DNA from: an uncultured Demequina sp.
GTDB taxonomy: Bacteria; Actinomycetota; Actinomycetes; Actinomycetales; Demequinaceae
Direction of reading: 5' to 3'
Assembly: GCA_937925595.1 (NCBI GenBank)
Contig: CALALQ010000100.1
Span: 1-10,369 of the forward strand
Length of the DNA: 10,369 nucleotides
The notes below the pieces were generated by a model, which searched no databases, was not told the DNA's origin, and was given only the letters and a program-made list of their open reading frames with translations. This document shows, in pieces, positions 1,157-10,369 of the stretch. The first letter of the stretch is position 1. The number at the start of each line of letters is the position of its first letter. Made by a program: the position numbers and the translations under genes.

Positions 1157-1780
1157 ATGCGCCACACACCGCGCTACATCGTCGAGGACGTGAATGAGGT
1201 CAAGCGCCTCATCCGCCGCAACGCGTGGGCCACCTTCGTCTCCCCCGCCTCCACGGGCCTTGTCGCAAGTCACTACCCCGTCATCCTCGACGGGGCCGCA
1301 GAGGACCTCACGATCATCAGCCACTTCGGCCGCCCCGATGAGGTCTCGCACGAGCTCGGTCAGCACGAGATCCTCGTCATCATCCAAGGCCCTCACGACT
1401 ACGTTTCGCCCAGCTGGTACGCGCAGGGCGATGTCATCCCCACCTGGAACCACGTCACCGCGCACCTCTACGGCACTCCGGAGCTCCTCAGCGATGAGGA
1501 GAACTACCGGATGCTCGAACTGCTCACCGACCACTTCGAACAGCACTTCCCCGGTGGCCGCAGCCTCAGCGAAGACCCAGTGGGCACGCGCCGCATCGCC
1601 AAGGGCACCGTTGGCCTGCGCATGCGCGTCACCCGCTTCGACGCCCGCGCCAAGCTCTCACAGAACAAGCCTGCCGAGGTCAGGGAAACGATCATCGCCA
1701 ACTATGAGCAGGCCAACCCTGCCCTGGCTCAAGAGATGAGGCGGCCCGACGCTACAGCCGGGAACGAGCGTCGGCCATAG
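1157..1780 (+). CDS. PaiB-family FMN-binding protein (putative negative transcriptional regulator)
   Basis: A 207-aa member of the PaiB family, with a split-barrel flavin-binding fold. Family members bind FMN; Bacillus subtilis PaiB was described as a negative regulator of sporulation and degradative enzymes, but the biochemical role of most homologues is unsettled. Diagnostic motifs are GPHDYVSPSWY (78-88), PTWNHVTAHLYG (95-106) and KLSQNKP (166-172). The usual HxARANP-type motif is replaced by SHFGRPDEVS (55-64), suggesting a divergent subgroup. The start is the ATG at 1157, with GAGGAG (1147-1152) upstream; a longer reading from the TTG at 1106 adds a non-conserved tail. The last 29 bases overlap the 3' end of the convergent kinase/phospho-lyase gene. 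No PaiA acetyltransferase is adjacent. Confidence 0.9.
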   Translation: MRHTPRYIVEDVNEVKRLIRRNAWATFVSPASTGLVASHYPVILDGAAEDLTIISHFGRPDEVSHELGQHEILVIIQGPHDYVSPSWYAQGDVIPTWNHVTAHLYGTPELLSDEENYRMLELLTDHFEQHFPGGRSLSEDPVGTRRIAKGTVGLRMRVTRFDARAKLSQNKPAEVRETIIANYEQANPALAQEMRRPDATAGNERRP

Positions 1781-4532
1781 TCAGCACGTGGTCCAGTGCG
1801 CCTAGGAAACGCTCGACGGCCTCCTCGTCGATCGTGAGCGGCGGCTTGATCTTCAGCACGTTCTTGTGGTCGCCGGTGGGCTGCACGATCACGCCCTCGT
1901 CGAGCAGCGCGTCGCAAATCTCGCGAGCGAACTCGGGGTCGGGTTCTGACGGACCGTAACGGACGATCTCCACGCCCAGGTACAGGCCCATGCCGTGCAC
2001 CGCACCCAGCGCGGGCCAGCGCTCCGCGAGCGCTCGCAGGCCGTCGGCGAGCAGGGTGCCCACAGCGTCGGCCCGCTCCTGCAGGTGGTCCTCCTCGAGA
2101 ATCCGCAGCACCGCGGTGCCCACGGCGCAGCTCACGGGCGAGCCGCCCGCAGACGAGAAGAACGACCCGTCCGCAGCGAACGCCTCGGCAATCTCGCGCG
2201 TCGTGATCACCGCGCCCAGCGGGTGACCATTGCCCATCGCCTTCGCCACCGCGATGACGTCCGGCACCACTCCCTGCTGTTCGAAGCCCCAGAAGTGCCT
2301 GCCAAGCCGGCCATAGCTGACCTGCACCTCGTCGCTCACACACAGGCCACCTGCCGCTCGCACAGCGGCGTAGACGCGCTCAAGGTAGCCGTCCGGCAGC
2401 AGGATGCCGCCGCCGTTGCCGAAGATCGGCTCGCAGATGAGCCCAGCGAGCGACACCCCGTCCGCCGCCAGCTCCTCGATGCGCGACACCGCCTCGTCCG
2501 CGTACCTCCACGCGTCCTCACCGGTGTACTTGCCGCGATACGTATTGGGCGAATCCAGCAGGTGCACCCAGGACGGCCGCGTCTCGAGCGCTCGCGGGTT
2601 GTCGCCAATCGACGTGGAGATCGCATCCGCGCCCACGGTCCAGCCGTGATACGCCTCGGTCAGCGCGAGCACGTCCTCACGCGCCGTCGCGGTGCGAATC
2701 AGGCGCATCGCAAGGTCCACCGCCTCGGAGCCGGAGTTGACGAGCAGCACCTGGTCAAGGCCCTCTGGCGTGCGCGCCGTCAGCTCTTCGCACAGCTCGA
2801 CGAGTGCCGAGTAGTGGAATCGCGAGTTCGTGTTGAGGCGTCGCAGCTGCGCGTCCGCTGCGTCGGCGAGGCGAGGCTCTCCGTGCCCAAGGATTGCGAC
2901 GTTGTTGACCATGTCGAGATAGCCGCGGCCGTTGACGTCGATGAGATGGTGCCGCCAGCCGCGCTCGATCTGCGGCGGATGCGCGTAGTAGTGCTCCTGC
3001 ACGGGTGCGAACGTCGTGACCCTCGCCTTAACCAGGGCTTCCGCATCACGGCCCGACGCTGGGGAGGGCTTGCGACCGAGCAGCGCCGAAGGGTCGGGAC
3101 AGATGCGTCCCCACTGCTCCTCGAGTCCGGGGCGCACATAGCGCGGCGCCTTGGGTGCGGAGGCGCTGAGCTGCAGCCACACGGGCCCCTTCGCGACGCC
3201 GATCTGCACTCCCGCGCCCACGGTCTCTCCGGACTCGACGCTTGCCTCGATGCCGCCAACATGCACCCAGCCGCCCTCGACCAGGGCCGCCACCATGTTG
3301 CCGCGCGCGGTGGTGCGCACCAGGATGTCGGCGGGAGCGAAGATCGGTGTGCCGGGAGCGACGTTTGCTTGGATGCCGAGCGGAACCGTGCGCGGAAGCT
3401 CGGCGGTCGCCGCGGCCGGCGTGAGGATCGGCTGGCCATACCTCGTGACCGTGCCCAGCGGCGCCGGCGGGAGCTCGTTGACCCACGCTCCCCCGTCGTG
3501 CACCGGGGAGGTCACCGACAGGTCCCACTCTGGAGCGTCACCAAGGCCCTCGATCATGGGCATGAGCCGTGCCTGCGGCTTGGGCAGCATGCCGATCGCG
3601 TCGAGGATCAGCAGCTCCACCTGGTCGTAGTCGACAGCGAGCGCATGAGCGAGCACCAGCCGCTCGAACGGCCTGCGGGCGAGCGCGTAGCCGTTGTCTG
3701 GATCGCCTGCGAGCACGCGATTGGCGCCGGCCTCGAGCACGAGCGCGCGGCGCACCACGAGCGGCCAGATGGCCTTCGCCTCGTCAAGCGACAGGGGCCG
3801 GCGAGCGTGGAACGCGGCGACGGCAGCGAGCACCTCGCCGATGAACGAGCCGTCATGCTGCAGCAAAGACGTGATGCTCACCGCGAGCTCAGCCACCGCC
3901 CAGCCGGGCGACAGGTCGCCGAAGTCGATGACGCCGCCAAAGTCGCCATGGGAGCCGAGCACCACGTTGTCCTCTGTGAGGTCACCGTGAATCACCTGCA
4001 CCGGCAGGTTGAGCCTCGCGGTGCGGTTAAGGCTCGCCTTGAGGGGTGCCTGCAGCGCTTCGTCATCGCCGATGACGCGTGCCGCCTCACGCAAGTCCCA
4101 GTCGCCTCCTCCCACGAGCGCGGGATGGGAGAACGTCGCGAGCTTCGCGACCATCTCGCCGGCCACGGCACCCAGCGCGGCACCAATGCCCGGCATGATC
4201 TTGCGGGAGCCGACGCTCATCTCGCCTTCGACGAACGACAGCACCCTCACGTAAGGGTGGCTTCCCCCGACCTCGATCACGGACGAGCCGTCGATCGCGA
4301 CGCGTGGGCGGGGCACATCGAACGTGGTGACGGCTGCGGTGAGGAACTCCAGCGCAGCCGATTGTGCCTCGAGTTCGGCACGCGGCGTCGCCGACGCCTT
4401 GAGCACCCACTTGGAGCCGTCTTTAGCGATGACCAAGAAGTTGAGGTCTTCGTTTCCGCCCATCTGGCGGAACTCAGCGACCTTCAGACCAAACTCCAGC
4501 TCGGCTATCTCCCGAGCCCTTTCCAACTGCAC
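1752..4532 (-). CDS. Fusion: APH-fold kinase + degenerate M23-like domain + class III PLP phospho-lyase/aminotransferase
   Basis: A 926-aa cytosolic fusion. Residues about 1-320 are an APH/homoserine-kinase-like kinase, with K45 in WVLKAS, the catalytic HGDLTEDN (H182, D184, N189) and the metal-binding IDFGD (D203). Residues about 345-487 resemble the M23/lipoyl-like beta domain found in relatives, ending CPDPSALLG, but lack metal ligands. Residues about 500-926 are a class III PLP enzyme: NSGSE (599-603), AYHGW (627-631), SDEVQ with D734, PLP lysine K764 in AKAMGNGHPLGAV, and NVLKIKPP (891-898). The last motif is typical of the AGXT2L phospho-lyases (ethanolamine-phosphate or phosphohydroxylysine). 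The likely chemistry is phosphorylation of an amino alcohol or hydroxy-amino acid, then elimination of phosphate and ammonia to an aldehyde; the substrate is unknown. The GTG start lies one base after the upstream gene's TGA, implying translational coupling. Confidence 0.9.
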   Translation of the reverse strand: MQLERAREIAELEFGLKVAEFRQMGGNEDLNFLVIAKDGSKWVLKASATPRAELEAQSAALEFLTAAVTTFDVPRPRVAIDGSSVIEVGGSHPYVRVLSFVEGEMSVGSRKIMPGIGAALGAVAGEMVAKLATFSHPALVGGGDWDLREAARVIGDDEALQAPLKASLNRTARLNLPVQVIHGDLTEDNVVLGSHGDFGGVIDFGDLSPGWAVAELAVSITSLLQHDGSFIGEVLAAVAAFHARRPLSLDEAKAIWPLVVRRALVLEAGANRVLAGDPDNGYALARRPFERLVLAHALAVDYDQVELLILDAIGMLPKPQARLMPMIEGLGDAPEWDLSVTSPVHDGGAWVNELPPAPLGTVTRYGQPILTPAAATAELPRTVPLGIQANVAPGTPIFAPADILVRTTARGNMVAALVEGGWVHVGGIEASVESGETVGAGVQIGVAKGPVWLQLSASAPKAPRYVRPGLEEQWGRICPDPSALLGRKPSPASGRDAEALVKARVTTFAPVQEHYYAHPPQIERGWRHHLIDVNGRGYLDMVNNVAILGHGEPRLADAADAQLRRLNTNSRFHYSALVELCEELTARTPEGLDQVLLVNSGSEAVDLAMRLIRTATAREDVLALTEAYHGWTVGADAISTSIGDNPRALETRPSWVHLLDSPNTYRGKYTGEDAWRYADEAVSRIEELAADGVSLAGLICEPIFGNGGGILLPDGYLERVYAAVRAAGGLCVSDEVQVSYGRLGRHFWGFEQQGVVPDVIAVAKAMGNGHPLGAVITTREIAEAFAADGSFFSSAGGSPVSCAVGTAVLRILEEDHLQERADAVGTLLADGLRALAERWPALGAVHGMGLYLGVEIVRYGPSEPDPEFAREICDALLDEGVIVQPTGDHKNVLKIKPPLTIDEEAVERFLGALDHVLTMADARSRL

Positions 4533-8315: not shown

Positions 8316-9041
8316 ATGAACGTCGTGATCATGCGCCTCACCTTGCGAGCGCTGCTTGGCAGCCGTCGCGTGTGGATCCTTGTGGGGATGGCCGCGCTGC
8401 TGTGGATCGTCGCGGGACTGTCTCGCTGGGGTTCGGGAGCCGACGTCGGCACCGCCACTGGCGTGATCGTCAATTTCGGCTTCGGCACGCTGGTGCCGAT
8501 CATGTGCCTCCTCGTCGGCACGGGGGCGGTGGCCCCGGAGATCGAGGACGGCTCGATCGTCTACCTGCTCGCGAAGCCGGTTCCGCGGCGCACCATCGTG
8601 CTGTCGAAGCTGATCGTGGCCATGGCCGTTGCCGTCGCGTTCAGCGTGATCTCGATTGTGGTTGCCGCGCAGATCGCCGGCGACGCGGAAGGGCAGCTCG
8701 CGCTGTCGATGGGTGTCGCCTCGGCGCTCGCGTCGATCGCCTATGTCGCCGTGTTCTTCATGATCGGAGTGGTGAGCCGCAACTCGATCATCGTGGGCCT
8801 GATCTACGCGATGCTGTGGGAGGGAACGCTTGCGGGCTACGTCCCCGGCGTTCGCGCCGTGAGCGTGCGTCAGTGGGCACTCGCTCCCGCGGAGCAGATT
8901 GTCGAGGACAACAGCGTGATCTCCATCGCCTCGGACCTCCCGCTGGTGCCTGCAATCGTGCTGCTCGTGCTTGCGACGGTGGTCTCGACGATCGTCTCGG
9001 TTCAGCGCCTCAAGGTGCTTTCCGCTCGCGTCTCTGAGTAA
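8316..9041 (+). CDS. ABC-2-type exporter permease (second copy)
   Basis: A 241-aa membrane protein with about six hydrophobic segments (about 19-35, 48-68, 94-119, 129-151, 156-174 and 208-228). The loop EIEDGSIVYLLAKPVPRR (75-92) matches the DGxxxxxLxxPxxR pattern of the first permease, supporting a common origin, although this copy lacks the long soluble N-terminus. I chose the ATG at 8316 because GGAAGGA (8304-8310) lies five bases upstream. The alternative is the GTG at 8295, which overlaps the ATPase stop as GTGA, matches the junction style of the operon and adds seven residues. It is the last gene of the ABC operon; no clear terminator hairpin was seen before the cysK promoter. Confidence 0.87.
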   Translation: MNVVIMRLTLRALLGSRRVWILVGMAALLWIVAGLSRWGSGADVGTATGVIVNFGFGTLVPIMCLLVGTGAVAPEIEDGSIVYLLAKPVPRRTIVLSKLIVAMAVAVAFSVISIVVAAQIAGDAEGQLALSMGVASALASIAYVAVFFMIGVVSRNSIIVGLIYAMLWEGTLAGYVPGVRAVSVRQWALAPAEQIVEDNSVISIASDLPLVPAIVLLVLATVVSTIVSVQRLKVLSARVSE

Positions 9042-9073
9042 CAGCAGACCGGCCGACGCTGGCTCGCCATTGC

Positions 9074-9103
9074 TTGCCCGTCACCTGGGAACCCGGCTAG
9101 ATT
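9074..9103 (+). promoter_or_regulatory. Putative SigA-type promoter of the cysteine operon
   Basis: TTGCCC (9074-9079) and TAGATT (9098-9103) are separated by 18 bases, each matching the vegetative -35/-10 consensus at four of six positions, with the TAnnnT form preferred in actinobacteria. The predicted transcription start is around 9108-9110. That gives about a 25-base 5' UTR before the leader ORF and about 225 bases before cysK. No other -10 of similar quality was seen between the leader ORF and cysK. Confidence 0.55.
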
Positions 9104-9134
9104 GGGCAAACCTGCACAGGAAAGGCTGGGCATC

Positions 9135-9221
9135 ATGAGCATCGCGCGTCACGCCACCTCGACGCCCGAGCGCGCCCTTTCCATGTGCATCCCCTGCGGC
9201 ATGTGCTGCTGCTGTCTGTAG
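9135..9221 (+). CDS. Polycysteine leader peptide (candidate cysteine-sensing upstream ORF)
   Basis: A 28-codon ORF too short for usual gene calling. Its ATG (9135) has a strong Shine-Dalgarno sequence, AGGAAAGG (9118-9125), nine bases upstream. The second half is extraordinarily cysteine-rich: Cys at 18, 21 and 24-27, the last four being consecutive codons TGC TGC TGC TGT (9204-9215), followed by Leu and TAG (9219-9221). It lies 114 bases upstream of cysK, followed by cysE. A stretch of codons for the pathway's end product just before biosynthetic genes is the hallmark of attenuator leader peptides. In mycobacteria, polycysteine upstream ORFs are known to act as cysteine-responsive attenuators. 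The peptide itself probably has no function; ribosome stalling when Cys-tRNA is scarce would be the signal. A small Cys-rich metal-binding or redox protein is the less likely alternative. Confidence 0.85.
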   Translation: MSIARHATSTPERALSMCIPCGMCCCCL

Positions 9222-9263
9222 AGCGCTGGCCTGGTTCGGTGACGAACCGACAAGTCAGCGCTC
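9221..9263 (+). promoter_or_regulatory. Leader RNA hairpin beginning at the leader ORF stop codon
   Basis: The outer stem GAGCGCTG (9221-9228) pairs perfectly with CAGCGCTC (9256-9263). The inner stem GGTTCG (9233-9238) pairs with CGAACC (9243-9248) around the loop GTGA. The first base of the outer stem is the last base of the leader TAG, so a ribosome sitting at the stop codon would cover the left arm, while one stalled at the first Cys codons of the run would leave it free. There is no T-tract, so an intrinsic terminator is unlikely. The right arm can alternatively pair with GAGCGC inside the leader ORF (9168-9173). Confidence 0.6.
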
Positions 9264-9288
9264 GCCCCCAGGAATCTCTGAAGCGAAT

Positions 9289-9306
9289 CGGGCGTTAGGG
9301 CGCCCG
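9289..9306 (+). promoter_or_regulatory. Second leader hairpin upstream of the cysK ribosome-binding site
   Basis: CGGGCG (9289-9294) pairs with CGCCCG (9301-9306) around the six-base loop TTAGGG. It ends about 17 bases before the cysK Shine-Dalgarno sequence. Part of its left arm (GGGCG, 9290-9294) can instead pair with CGCCC (9263-9267) at the foot of the first hairpin, so the two structures may influence each other. Its regulatory role is inferred. Confidence 0.4.
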
Positions 9307-9335
9307 GGACACCACCAACACCAAAGGAAATCCAC

Positions 9336-10271
9336 ATGGCTCGCATTTACGAGGACGCCACGGCTCTCATTGGCAACACTCCCCTCGTCAAGATCAACAA
9401 GCTCACCGCTGGCGCTGGTGCCACGGTGCTCGGCAAGCTCGAGTTCTACAACCCGGCGAACTCCGTCAAGGACCGCATCGGCGTCGCGATCATCGACGCG
9501 GCTGAGGCTGACGGCTCGCTCAAGCCGGGCGGCACGATCGTCGAGGCGACCTCCGGCAACACCGGCATCGCGCTCGCCTTCGTGGGCGCCGCCCGCGGCT
9601 ACAACGTCGTCCTGACGATGCCCGAGACGATGTCCAAGGAGCGCCGCGCCCTGCTGCGCGCCTTTGGTGCGGAGCTCATCCTGACCCCCGGCCCCGAGGG
9701 CATGCGCGGCGCGGTCGAGGCCGCGAACACGATCGCCGAGGAGCGCGAGGGCGCGATTCTGGCCCGCCAGTTCGCCAACGTCGCGAACCCCGAGATCCAC
9801 CGCAAGACCACCGCTGAGGAGATCTGGAACGACACCGACGGCGCCGTAGACATCGTCGTTGCCGGCATCGGCACGGGCGGCACCATCACCGGTGTCGGTG
9901 AGGTGCTCAAGTCGCGCAAGCCTGAGGTGCAGATCATCGCCGTCGAGCCTGCCGAGTCACCGATCCTCAACGGCGGCCAGCCTGGCCCCCACAAGATCCA
10001 GGGCATCGGCGCGAACTTCGTCCCCGAGATCCTCAACACCGAGATCTACGACGAGGTCATCGACATCGACTCCGAGACCGCGGTCGCCACGGCCCGTGCG
10101 GCAGCTCGCCAGGAGGGCCTGCTCGTCGGCATCTCCTCGGGTGCGGCCCTCGCGGCGGCGATCCAGGTGGCCAACCGCCCCGAGAACGCCGGCAAGACCA
10201 TCGTCGTGGTCATTCCGTCGTTCGGTGAGCGCTACCTGTCGTCGGTGCTGTACGCGGACCTCATGGACTGA
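9336..10271 (+). CDS. cysK: Cysteine synthase A (O-acetylserine sulfhydrylase)
   Basis: A 311-aa PLP enzyme of normal family length that makes L-cysteine and acetate from O-acetyl-L-serine and sulfide in the cytosol. Visible features are the N-terminal [10 protein letters not shown] (12-21), the PLP lysine K45 in NSVKDR (42-47), the substrate-binding loop TSGNTG (72-77), the phosphate-binding GIGTGGT (177-183), and GISSGA (265-270) with S268 contacting the PLP ring nitrogen. The ATG at 9336 has AAAGGA (9323-9328) seven bases upstream. It is preceded by the polycysteine leader ORF and hairpins, which suggests control by cysteine supply. Eleven bases after its stop begins a serine acetyltransferase gene, so both steps from serine to cysteine are co-transcribed and the two enzymes could form the cysteine synthase complex. 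Confidence 0.97.
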
Positions 10272-10282
10272 TCTGAGCCCTG

Positions 10283-10369
10283 ATGTCTGATCGCCCCAAC
10301 TTCCTGACCCTCGCTCTCGAGGACATTCGCACCGCGCGCCGCCGCGACCCGGCAGCGCGATCGTGGCTT
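10283..10369 (+). CDS. cysE: Serine O-acetyltransferase, N-terminal fragment (cut by window edge)
   Basis: The first 29 codons are in frame up to the last base of the window. The translation begins MSDRPNFLTLALEDIRTARR and continues RDPAARSWL. The EDIRTARRRDPAARS stretch is the conserved N-terminal helix pattern of short bacterial serine acetyltransferases, which acetylate L-serine with acetyl-CoA to O-acetylserine, the substrate of CysK. The start lies 11 bases after the cysK stop with only a weak Shine-Dalgarno sequence (CTGAG), suggesting translational coupling. The catalytic left-handed beta-helix domain is outside the window, so the call rests on this short match plus the strong cysK context. 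Confidence 0.82.
   Translation, partial: MSDRPNFLTLALEDIRTARRRDPAARSWL

Follow-up and report, generated by a model that had tools for sequence, protein, structure and literature searches.

A cysteine-rich leader ORF with a conserved hairpin at its stop codon precedes cysK-cysE in Demequina and is a probable cysteine-responsive attenuator

The cysK-cysE operon of an uncultured Demequina sp. is headed by a short upstream ORF (uORF) that carries a run of Cys codons near its end and whose stop codon opens a hairpin, P1, and we regard it as probable that this leader is a cysteine-responsive attenuator read by the ribosome. The uORF, its penultimate UGU codon, P1, and the spacing among them are kept throughout the genus; that the uORF is translated, that ribosomes stall on it, and that the outcome depends on cysteine is what we infer. 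The stretch of DNA that was analyzed, called the window throughout, is 10,369 nucleotides long, and its features are collected in Table 1. An earlier note on this DNA had interpreted the uORF as a cysteine-responsive leader of cysK, an interpretation that gains support from conservation across the genus, with cysteine sensing itself as the presumed function. P1 and a second Cys-rich leader upstream of cysH both go beyond that note.

Table 1. Features of the cysK leader and the genes that follow it in the window
Feature	Position	Strand	Remark
-35-like TTGCCC	9074..9079	+	TTGCC about 17-18 nt 5' of TAGnnT-like hexamers above most Demequina uORFs (by eye)
-10-like TAGATT	9098..9103	+	Many relatives have TAGCCT there; ends 31 nt before the uORF ATG
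Shine-Dalgarno AGGAAAGG of the uORF	9118..9125	+	Direct reading
Cys-run leader ORF	9135..9221	+	Counterpart in 43/43 Demequina genomes with a cysK match
Further uORF Cys codons	9186-9188, 9195-9197	+	
Four Cys codons TGC TGC TGC TGT	9204..9215	+	Last (9213-9215) is TGT in 44/44 sequences
Hairpin P1	9221..9263	+	9221-9230 pairs with 9254-9263; inner helix 9232-9238 with 9243-9249
Second hairpin CGGGCGU/GCGCCCG, containing GCGUU	9289..9306	+	Window fold
Shine-Dalgarno AAGGA of cysK	9324..9328	+	Direct reading
cysK, cysteine synthase	9336..10271	+	Pfam PF00291 (PALP enzyme); 82-95% identity to cysK of the genus group
cysE start	10283..10369	+	29 codons, cut by the window end; by-eye match to L082 ORF 2447-3106

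The 28-codon uORF encodes MSIARHATSTPERALSMCIPCGMCCCCL, followed by its stop codon. The C terminus reads C-I-P-C-G-M-C-C-C-C-L-stop, in which Cys makes up 6 of the last 11 residues, 4 of them contiguous, and 114 nt separate the uORF stop from the cysK start. These features, together with the Shine-Dalgarno (SD) sequence, had been pointed out in the earlier note and were confirmed by direct reading. The note had also placed the Cys run just before the stop; the four contiguous residues stand, but a Leu codon intervenes before TAG. Its further claim, that such a run would be unlikely by chance, was borne out by counts of SD-preceded ORFs of 12 to 50 codons. At least 4 Cys among the last 8 residues were found in 2 of 1303 such ORFs taken from 80 related loci, on their flanks and opposite strands, and in 1 of 43 in the window, which is the uORF itself. 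The two exceptions among the controls resemble each other; they occur in loci L045 and L049, upstream of cysK and on its strand, and may themselves be leaders. These two ORFs (L045, 1174-1266; L049, 2454-2546) come from Propionibacteriaceae-like records, end in CVAACPCCCRA-stop, lie about 1.7 and 0.45 kb from cysK, respectively, and possibly head another gene.

A promoter-like pair of hexamers lies upstream of the uORF; a sigma-70 consensus scan gave no match at the -35-like site. Our guess is that the transcript starts near 9110, which would leave a 5' UTR of about 25 nt. Because an SD word precedes the uORF and a promoter-like pair stands upstream of most of its counterparts (the latter by eye), initiation does not look leaderless and probably involves a short 5' UTR, in agreement with the earlier note, which had set initiation here apart from that of leaderless ORFs.

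The cysK gene of the window is up to 90% identical to that of named Demequina species and 95% identical to that of one genus-group genome. The nearest relative is locus L082, in which the ORF that we take to be serine acetyltransferase comes after cysK; the 29-codon cysE fragment of the window gave no Pfam match. With the covariance models of Rfam 15, only two tRNAs in the window reached gathering scores, and two weak matches (E values of 1.5 and 4) fell in the leader region. Seven leader peptides gave no match in NCBIfam. Elsewhere in the window, positions 1752-4532 of the minus strand encode a large fused protein with phosphotransferase (APH) and class-III aminotransferase domains.

Conservation was followed through a genus group of 44 genomes, 43 of which have a cysK match at 1e-100 (G040 does not). 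All 43 upstream regions were read, and each carries a Cys-rich uORF 111 to 206 nt before cysK; together with the window, these leaders form a set of 44 sequences. An SD word precedes the ATG in 43 of the 44, the exception being L107, whose start is uncertain, and 43 of the 44 peptides begin with Met-Ser. The number of Cys residues ranges from 3 to 9 and the first half of the peptide drifts; the penultimate residue is Cys in every sequence, followed by Leu (40 sequences), Arg (2), or Gln (2). The codon for this last Cys is fixed as TGT (UGU in the transcript), whereas the remaining Cys codons are divided 214 TGC to 25 TGT, and such constraint at a synonymous site points to a role at the level of the RNA. 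The earlier note had proposed that a comparison of relatives would find the ORF, its Cys tail, and its position relative to the stop preserved while the N-terminal half varies; this holds within the genus, but outside it for part of the cysK loci only. In one genome (G012, locus L123), cysK is seemingly split into two frames in the assembly, and its leader looks intact.

P1 begins at the same place in all 44 sequences, its first pair being formed by the G of the uORF stop codon. The segment 9219-9265 has a predicted folding energy of -28.3 kcal/mol (z -4.9), and none of 200 shuffles was equally stable. The P1 stem alone makes up the consensus structure of the 44-sequence alignment. Its four outermost pairs are invariant, and the fifth is G-C or G-U in all 44; three inner pairs have changed on both sides, in 1, 1, and 5 sequences, and pairs 6, 8, and 9 are broken in 2, 3, and 9 of the 44. 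Farther 3', the motif G[CU]GUU follows P1 in 37 of the 44 Demequina leaders as opposed to none of 36 other leaders. In the window it lies within the second hairpin of Table 1, and in many relatives a different hairpin, P2, precedes GCGUU. A core alignment of 38 sequences excludes L107, L110, L114, L116, L118, and L119, which have long insertions or an unusual start; in it, the proportion paired is 96.3% for P1 and 73.6% for P2. For P1 and P2 together, none of 500 shuffles matches the covariation score, the number of paired cells, or the number of cells with changes on both sides, and 14 and 19 of the 500 reach the observed numbers of pairs changed on both sides and of pair types, in tests that are inflated by the relatedness of the sequences. 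A covariation scan of column pairs brought out no further recognizable helix among its best 15.

A covariance model built from the core alignment (37 genome leaders and the window) gave, among the matches listed, a single strong match (E at most 2.3e-9) per genome in 43 of the 44; the exception is G040, the genome without a cysK match. The six leaders left out of the alignment were recovered with E values of 2.3e-9 to 1.5e-15. The second-best matches listed (E 0.0012 and 0.002), in a search whose filters lose weak matches, were rejected as extra copies of the element in Demequina, since by eye they look to lie inside protein-coding sequence.

Outside Demequina, an SD-led uORF that ends in Cys-X-stop and has at least seven pairs at its stop was found at 17 of 72 cysK loci, compared with 1 of 1849 control windows drawn from the same loci, under criteria set after the Demequina element had been seen. 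All 17 have TGT followed by C, which the criteria did not demand. The 55 loci that fail include all those of Microbacteriaceae, Intrasporangiaceae, and Propionibacteriaceae, as assigned by genus name. In four of the 55 (L009, L026, L035, and L053), Cys-X-TAG with AGCG or GGCG after it is nonetheless present; L026, with its short loop, escaped the stem rule, and the motifs of the other three come to light on inspection or under a less strict rule. A Cys-run uORF, e.g., one ending SCCRCLGCR-stop, without a stem at the stop is found in five Cellulosimicrobium/Oerskovia loci (L011, L012, L013, L018, and L021), and at many other cysK loci no uORF of this kind is seen.

Genomes were also searched with the pattern TGTCNNTAGAGCG...CGCTC, and those with the reversed pattern were counted as a control. 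In the genus, 37 of 44 genomes have the pattern (5 in the reversed control); in the order, 44 of 248 do, including 18 Demequina (13 in the control). With a longer loop it was found in 61 of 121 Cellulomonas-family genomes, counted regardless of cysK (5 in the control). There is no enrichment in Mycobacteriaceae (6 of 151 genomes; control, 20), where two of the six matches, one of them in a Gordonia, look genuine by shape, or across the phylum (6 of 396 genomes, one of them a Demequina; control, 22). Among the non-Demequina matches of the order-level search, 21 of 26 were examined, and cysK follows in 19. The pattern leaves pairs 6, 7, 8, and 9 of the stem unconstrained; they form in 15, 18, 8, and 13 of these 19, respectively, with the longest stem taken where several partners were possible; pairs 6 and 7 are C-G, U-A, or A-U. 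Judged by these predicted stems, the stop-codon hairpin leader belongs to part of the Micrococcales and occurs also in one Gordonia (L043, approximately 2787-2864), whose cysK leader has a single Cys (ending TDHCR-stop) yet carries UGU-CNN-UAG and the hairpin.

A second Cys-rich leader ORF lies about 2 kb upstream of cysH in all 29 readable Demequina loci (L195-L203 and L235-L254, from 29 of the 44 genomes; L204 is incomplete). It ends in (A/V)-M-C-X-X-A-stop in 29 of 29, an ending that the final search pattern demanded except for the A/V, and its last Cys codon is TGT; a Cys run is present in most. No clear SD is visible, and a hexamer resembling a -10 element ends 6 to 7 nt before the ATG (both judged by eye), so this second leader is probably leaderless. 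The gene that follows encodes a sulfite reductase in L195, the one locus tested (PF01077), and from its position and similar start we infer the same for the other loci; cysD adjoins cysH in the nine loci L195-L203. Also by eye, a hairpin GGGCGCUCGG...GAGCGC lies 3' of the second leader in most loci, and AGCUCCC or CGCUCCC occurs nearer the SD in many. Hiding of the SD was considered here and rejected: predicted accessibility is 0.446 in real and 0.403 in shuffled sequences and lower than shuffled in 9 of 29, and blocking the first hairpin arm shifts mean accessibility little, from 0.32 to 0.29. Cysteine synthesis and sulfate reduction thus seem to stand under two types of leader in one genus.

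In the mechanism that we propose, the cysK-cysE transcript would open with the translation of an SD-led leader peptide. A shortage of Cys-tRNA(Cys) would make the ribosome stall within the Cys run and on the penultimate UGU; with an ample supply, the ribosome would reach UAG and depart. The position of the ribosome on the Cys run must then be the input, and since P1 begins at the last base of the stop codon, this position would set when or whether P1 forms, a decision that would be relayed to cysK-cysE. The run and P1 do not amount to a simple occlusion model, because P1 would be untouched by a ribosome at the run's first Cys but touched by one at the penultimate codon or at the stop, a difficulty that every simple model faces. 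As for the output step, our leading guess, reached by elimination and held at a little short of an even chance, is Rho-dependent, or otherwise transcriptional, attenuation. It is favored by the lack of folding support for SD occlusion, by the lack of an intrinsic terminator candidate in 9000-9400, and by a tendency of the leaders to be rich in C over G (27 of the 44 fall within the top 5% of control windows). Rho-dependent leader attenuators such as those of tna or mgtA have C-rich, G-poor leaders. The leader of the window is not unusually C-rich, being matched by 26% of control windows, which weakens the case for Rho in this copy.

Translational attenuation in the mycobacterial style, in which a stalled ribosome would prevent an mRNA structure that hides the cysK SD, is possible but rather less probable. 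Translation attenuation is how the closest worked example, that of mycobacteria, is described in the available portions of the literature, and by eye CCUCU and AGAGG lie near the SD in some Demequina leaders. Folding of the 44 leaders, free versus blocked and real versus shuffled, gave this reading no support as regards occlusion of the SD by P1. Predicted accessibility of the cysK SD was 0.577 in free leaders and 0.576 when the 15 nt from the stop codon on, and with them the 5' arm of P1, were blocked; this blocking raised it by more than 0.1 in one leader and lowered it in one; and real leaders stood at 0.586 against 0.573 for shuffled ones, with 15 of 44 below shuffled. Static folding is, however, a weak test, and a kinetic effect on the SD could escape it. 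Attenuation of transcription as in trp, with P1 as the antiterminator (2:3) and the 3' arm of P1 paired with GCGUUG as the terminator (3:4), we consider decidedly unlikely. The stop codon stands directly 5' of segment 2, as it does in the trp attenuator, and the G[CU]GUU that follows P1 in most Demequina leaders is complementary to the 3' arm of P1, but the motif is missing from all 36 leaders outside the genus and 9000-9400 holds no terminator-like site. The alternative pairing itself is appealing on inspection and 90% paired, but it found little support, as it hardly covaries and does no better than shuffles over the 44 leaders (z averages -0.06, and p is 0.05 or lower in 4 of 44; for the window, z -1.69 and p 0.04).

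The two readings that dispense with a regulatory leader fare worse. That the peptide has a function of its own, such as binding metal or thiols as a small Cys-rich protein, is very improbable. The shared Met-Ser start and some preferred residues in the middle would suit it, but neither the first half of the peptide nor its number of Cys residues is stable, the invariant Cys is always encoded by the same synonymous codon, the conserved base pairs are located from the stop codon onward, and the Gordonia counterpart has a single Cys. A chance ORF lying over a conserved promoter region can hardly be credited, being refuted by conservation of the uORF in 43 of 43 genomes and by the controls, in which a uORF with a stem at its stop and a Cys-rich SD-preceded ORF were each as rare as reported above (1/1849 and 2/1303). 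Returning to the cysteine-responsive attenuator, its full form is doubtful when taken as one joint claim: that cysteine is read by ribosomes at two operons, an SD-led cysK-cysE and a leaderless sulfite reductase-cysH; that the cysK attenuator is a distinct class found in part of the Micrococcales; that the decisive event falls at the UGU two codons before a stop that provides the first base pair of the regulatory hairpin; and that the output step works through neither intrinsic termination nor occlusion of the SD.

Leaders with polycysteine tracts are already known. The polycysteine leaderless short ORFs of mycobacteria were reportedly treated by Canestrari et al. 2020 (Mol Microbiol 114:93), and a stalled ribosome is said to free a hidden ribosome-binding site there. 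In the text available, others describe the 2020 mycobacterial study as translation attenuation by leaderless polycysteine ORFs, and a 2015 paper (PMC4633059) that drew on ribosome profiling had proposed that such uORFs mediate cysteine attenuation in mycobacteria. Judging by the accessible parts of these sources, the Demequina leader shares with the mycobacterial ones a short uORF with contiguous Cys before cysteine-metabolic genes and a proposed pausing of ribosomes. Unlike the leaderless mycobacterial ORFs, it is SD-led (an SD word in 43 of 44, with a promoter-like pair, from sequence alone) and has a probable 5' UTR, and it adds a stop-codon hairpin and a fixed UGU-CNN-UAG that are unenriched in Mycobacteriaceae.

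Seliverstov et al. 2005 (PMC1262725) predicted cys leader peptides in Mycobacterium, Propionibacterium acnes, and Bifidobacterium longum and, in the portion available, found no conserved hairpin able to serve as a terminator and suggested Rho; the genome list there includes Leifsonia xyli but neither Demequina nor Cellulomonas. As described in that portion, those leaders likewise carry Cys runs close to the stop codon and lack an intrinsic terminator, and they stand before cys or cbs genes, whereas the Demequina leader has a conserved hairpin, also no terminator, that starts at the stop codon. The ilvB1- and trp-type attenuators of actinobacteria (PMC13236596 and PMC8079986, in the parts accessible) have regulatory codons in a leader ORF beside hairpins, as does the predicted uORF. 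Several of them have a hairpin with a U-rich tract, and a scan of 9000-9400 found no such terminator in the cysK leader; the available text of PMC8079986 also lists leaders without a U-tract terminator. Table 4 of the same source includes a Streptomyces lividans leader, metL, that ends CMCRRMCAF-stop; with three Cys, this leader may be a reader of cysteine and not of methionine. Among the papers listed by full-text searches, which leave most subscription papers outside, there was no report of such leaders in Demequina, Cellulomonas, or their relatives. If our reading is true, attenuation by Cys runs would extend beyond the mycobacteria, P. acnes, and B. longum covered by the accessible text of PMC1262725 and related papers, and one genus would possess two Cys leaders for one amino acid. 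It would also offer a compact and naturally varied system, with a fixed distance from Cys codon to hairpin and one fixed synonymous codon, for testing how actinobacterial cys leaders act. Among these known systems, the SD-led build with a hairpin at its stop looks different from that of the mycobacterial leaders.
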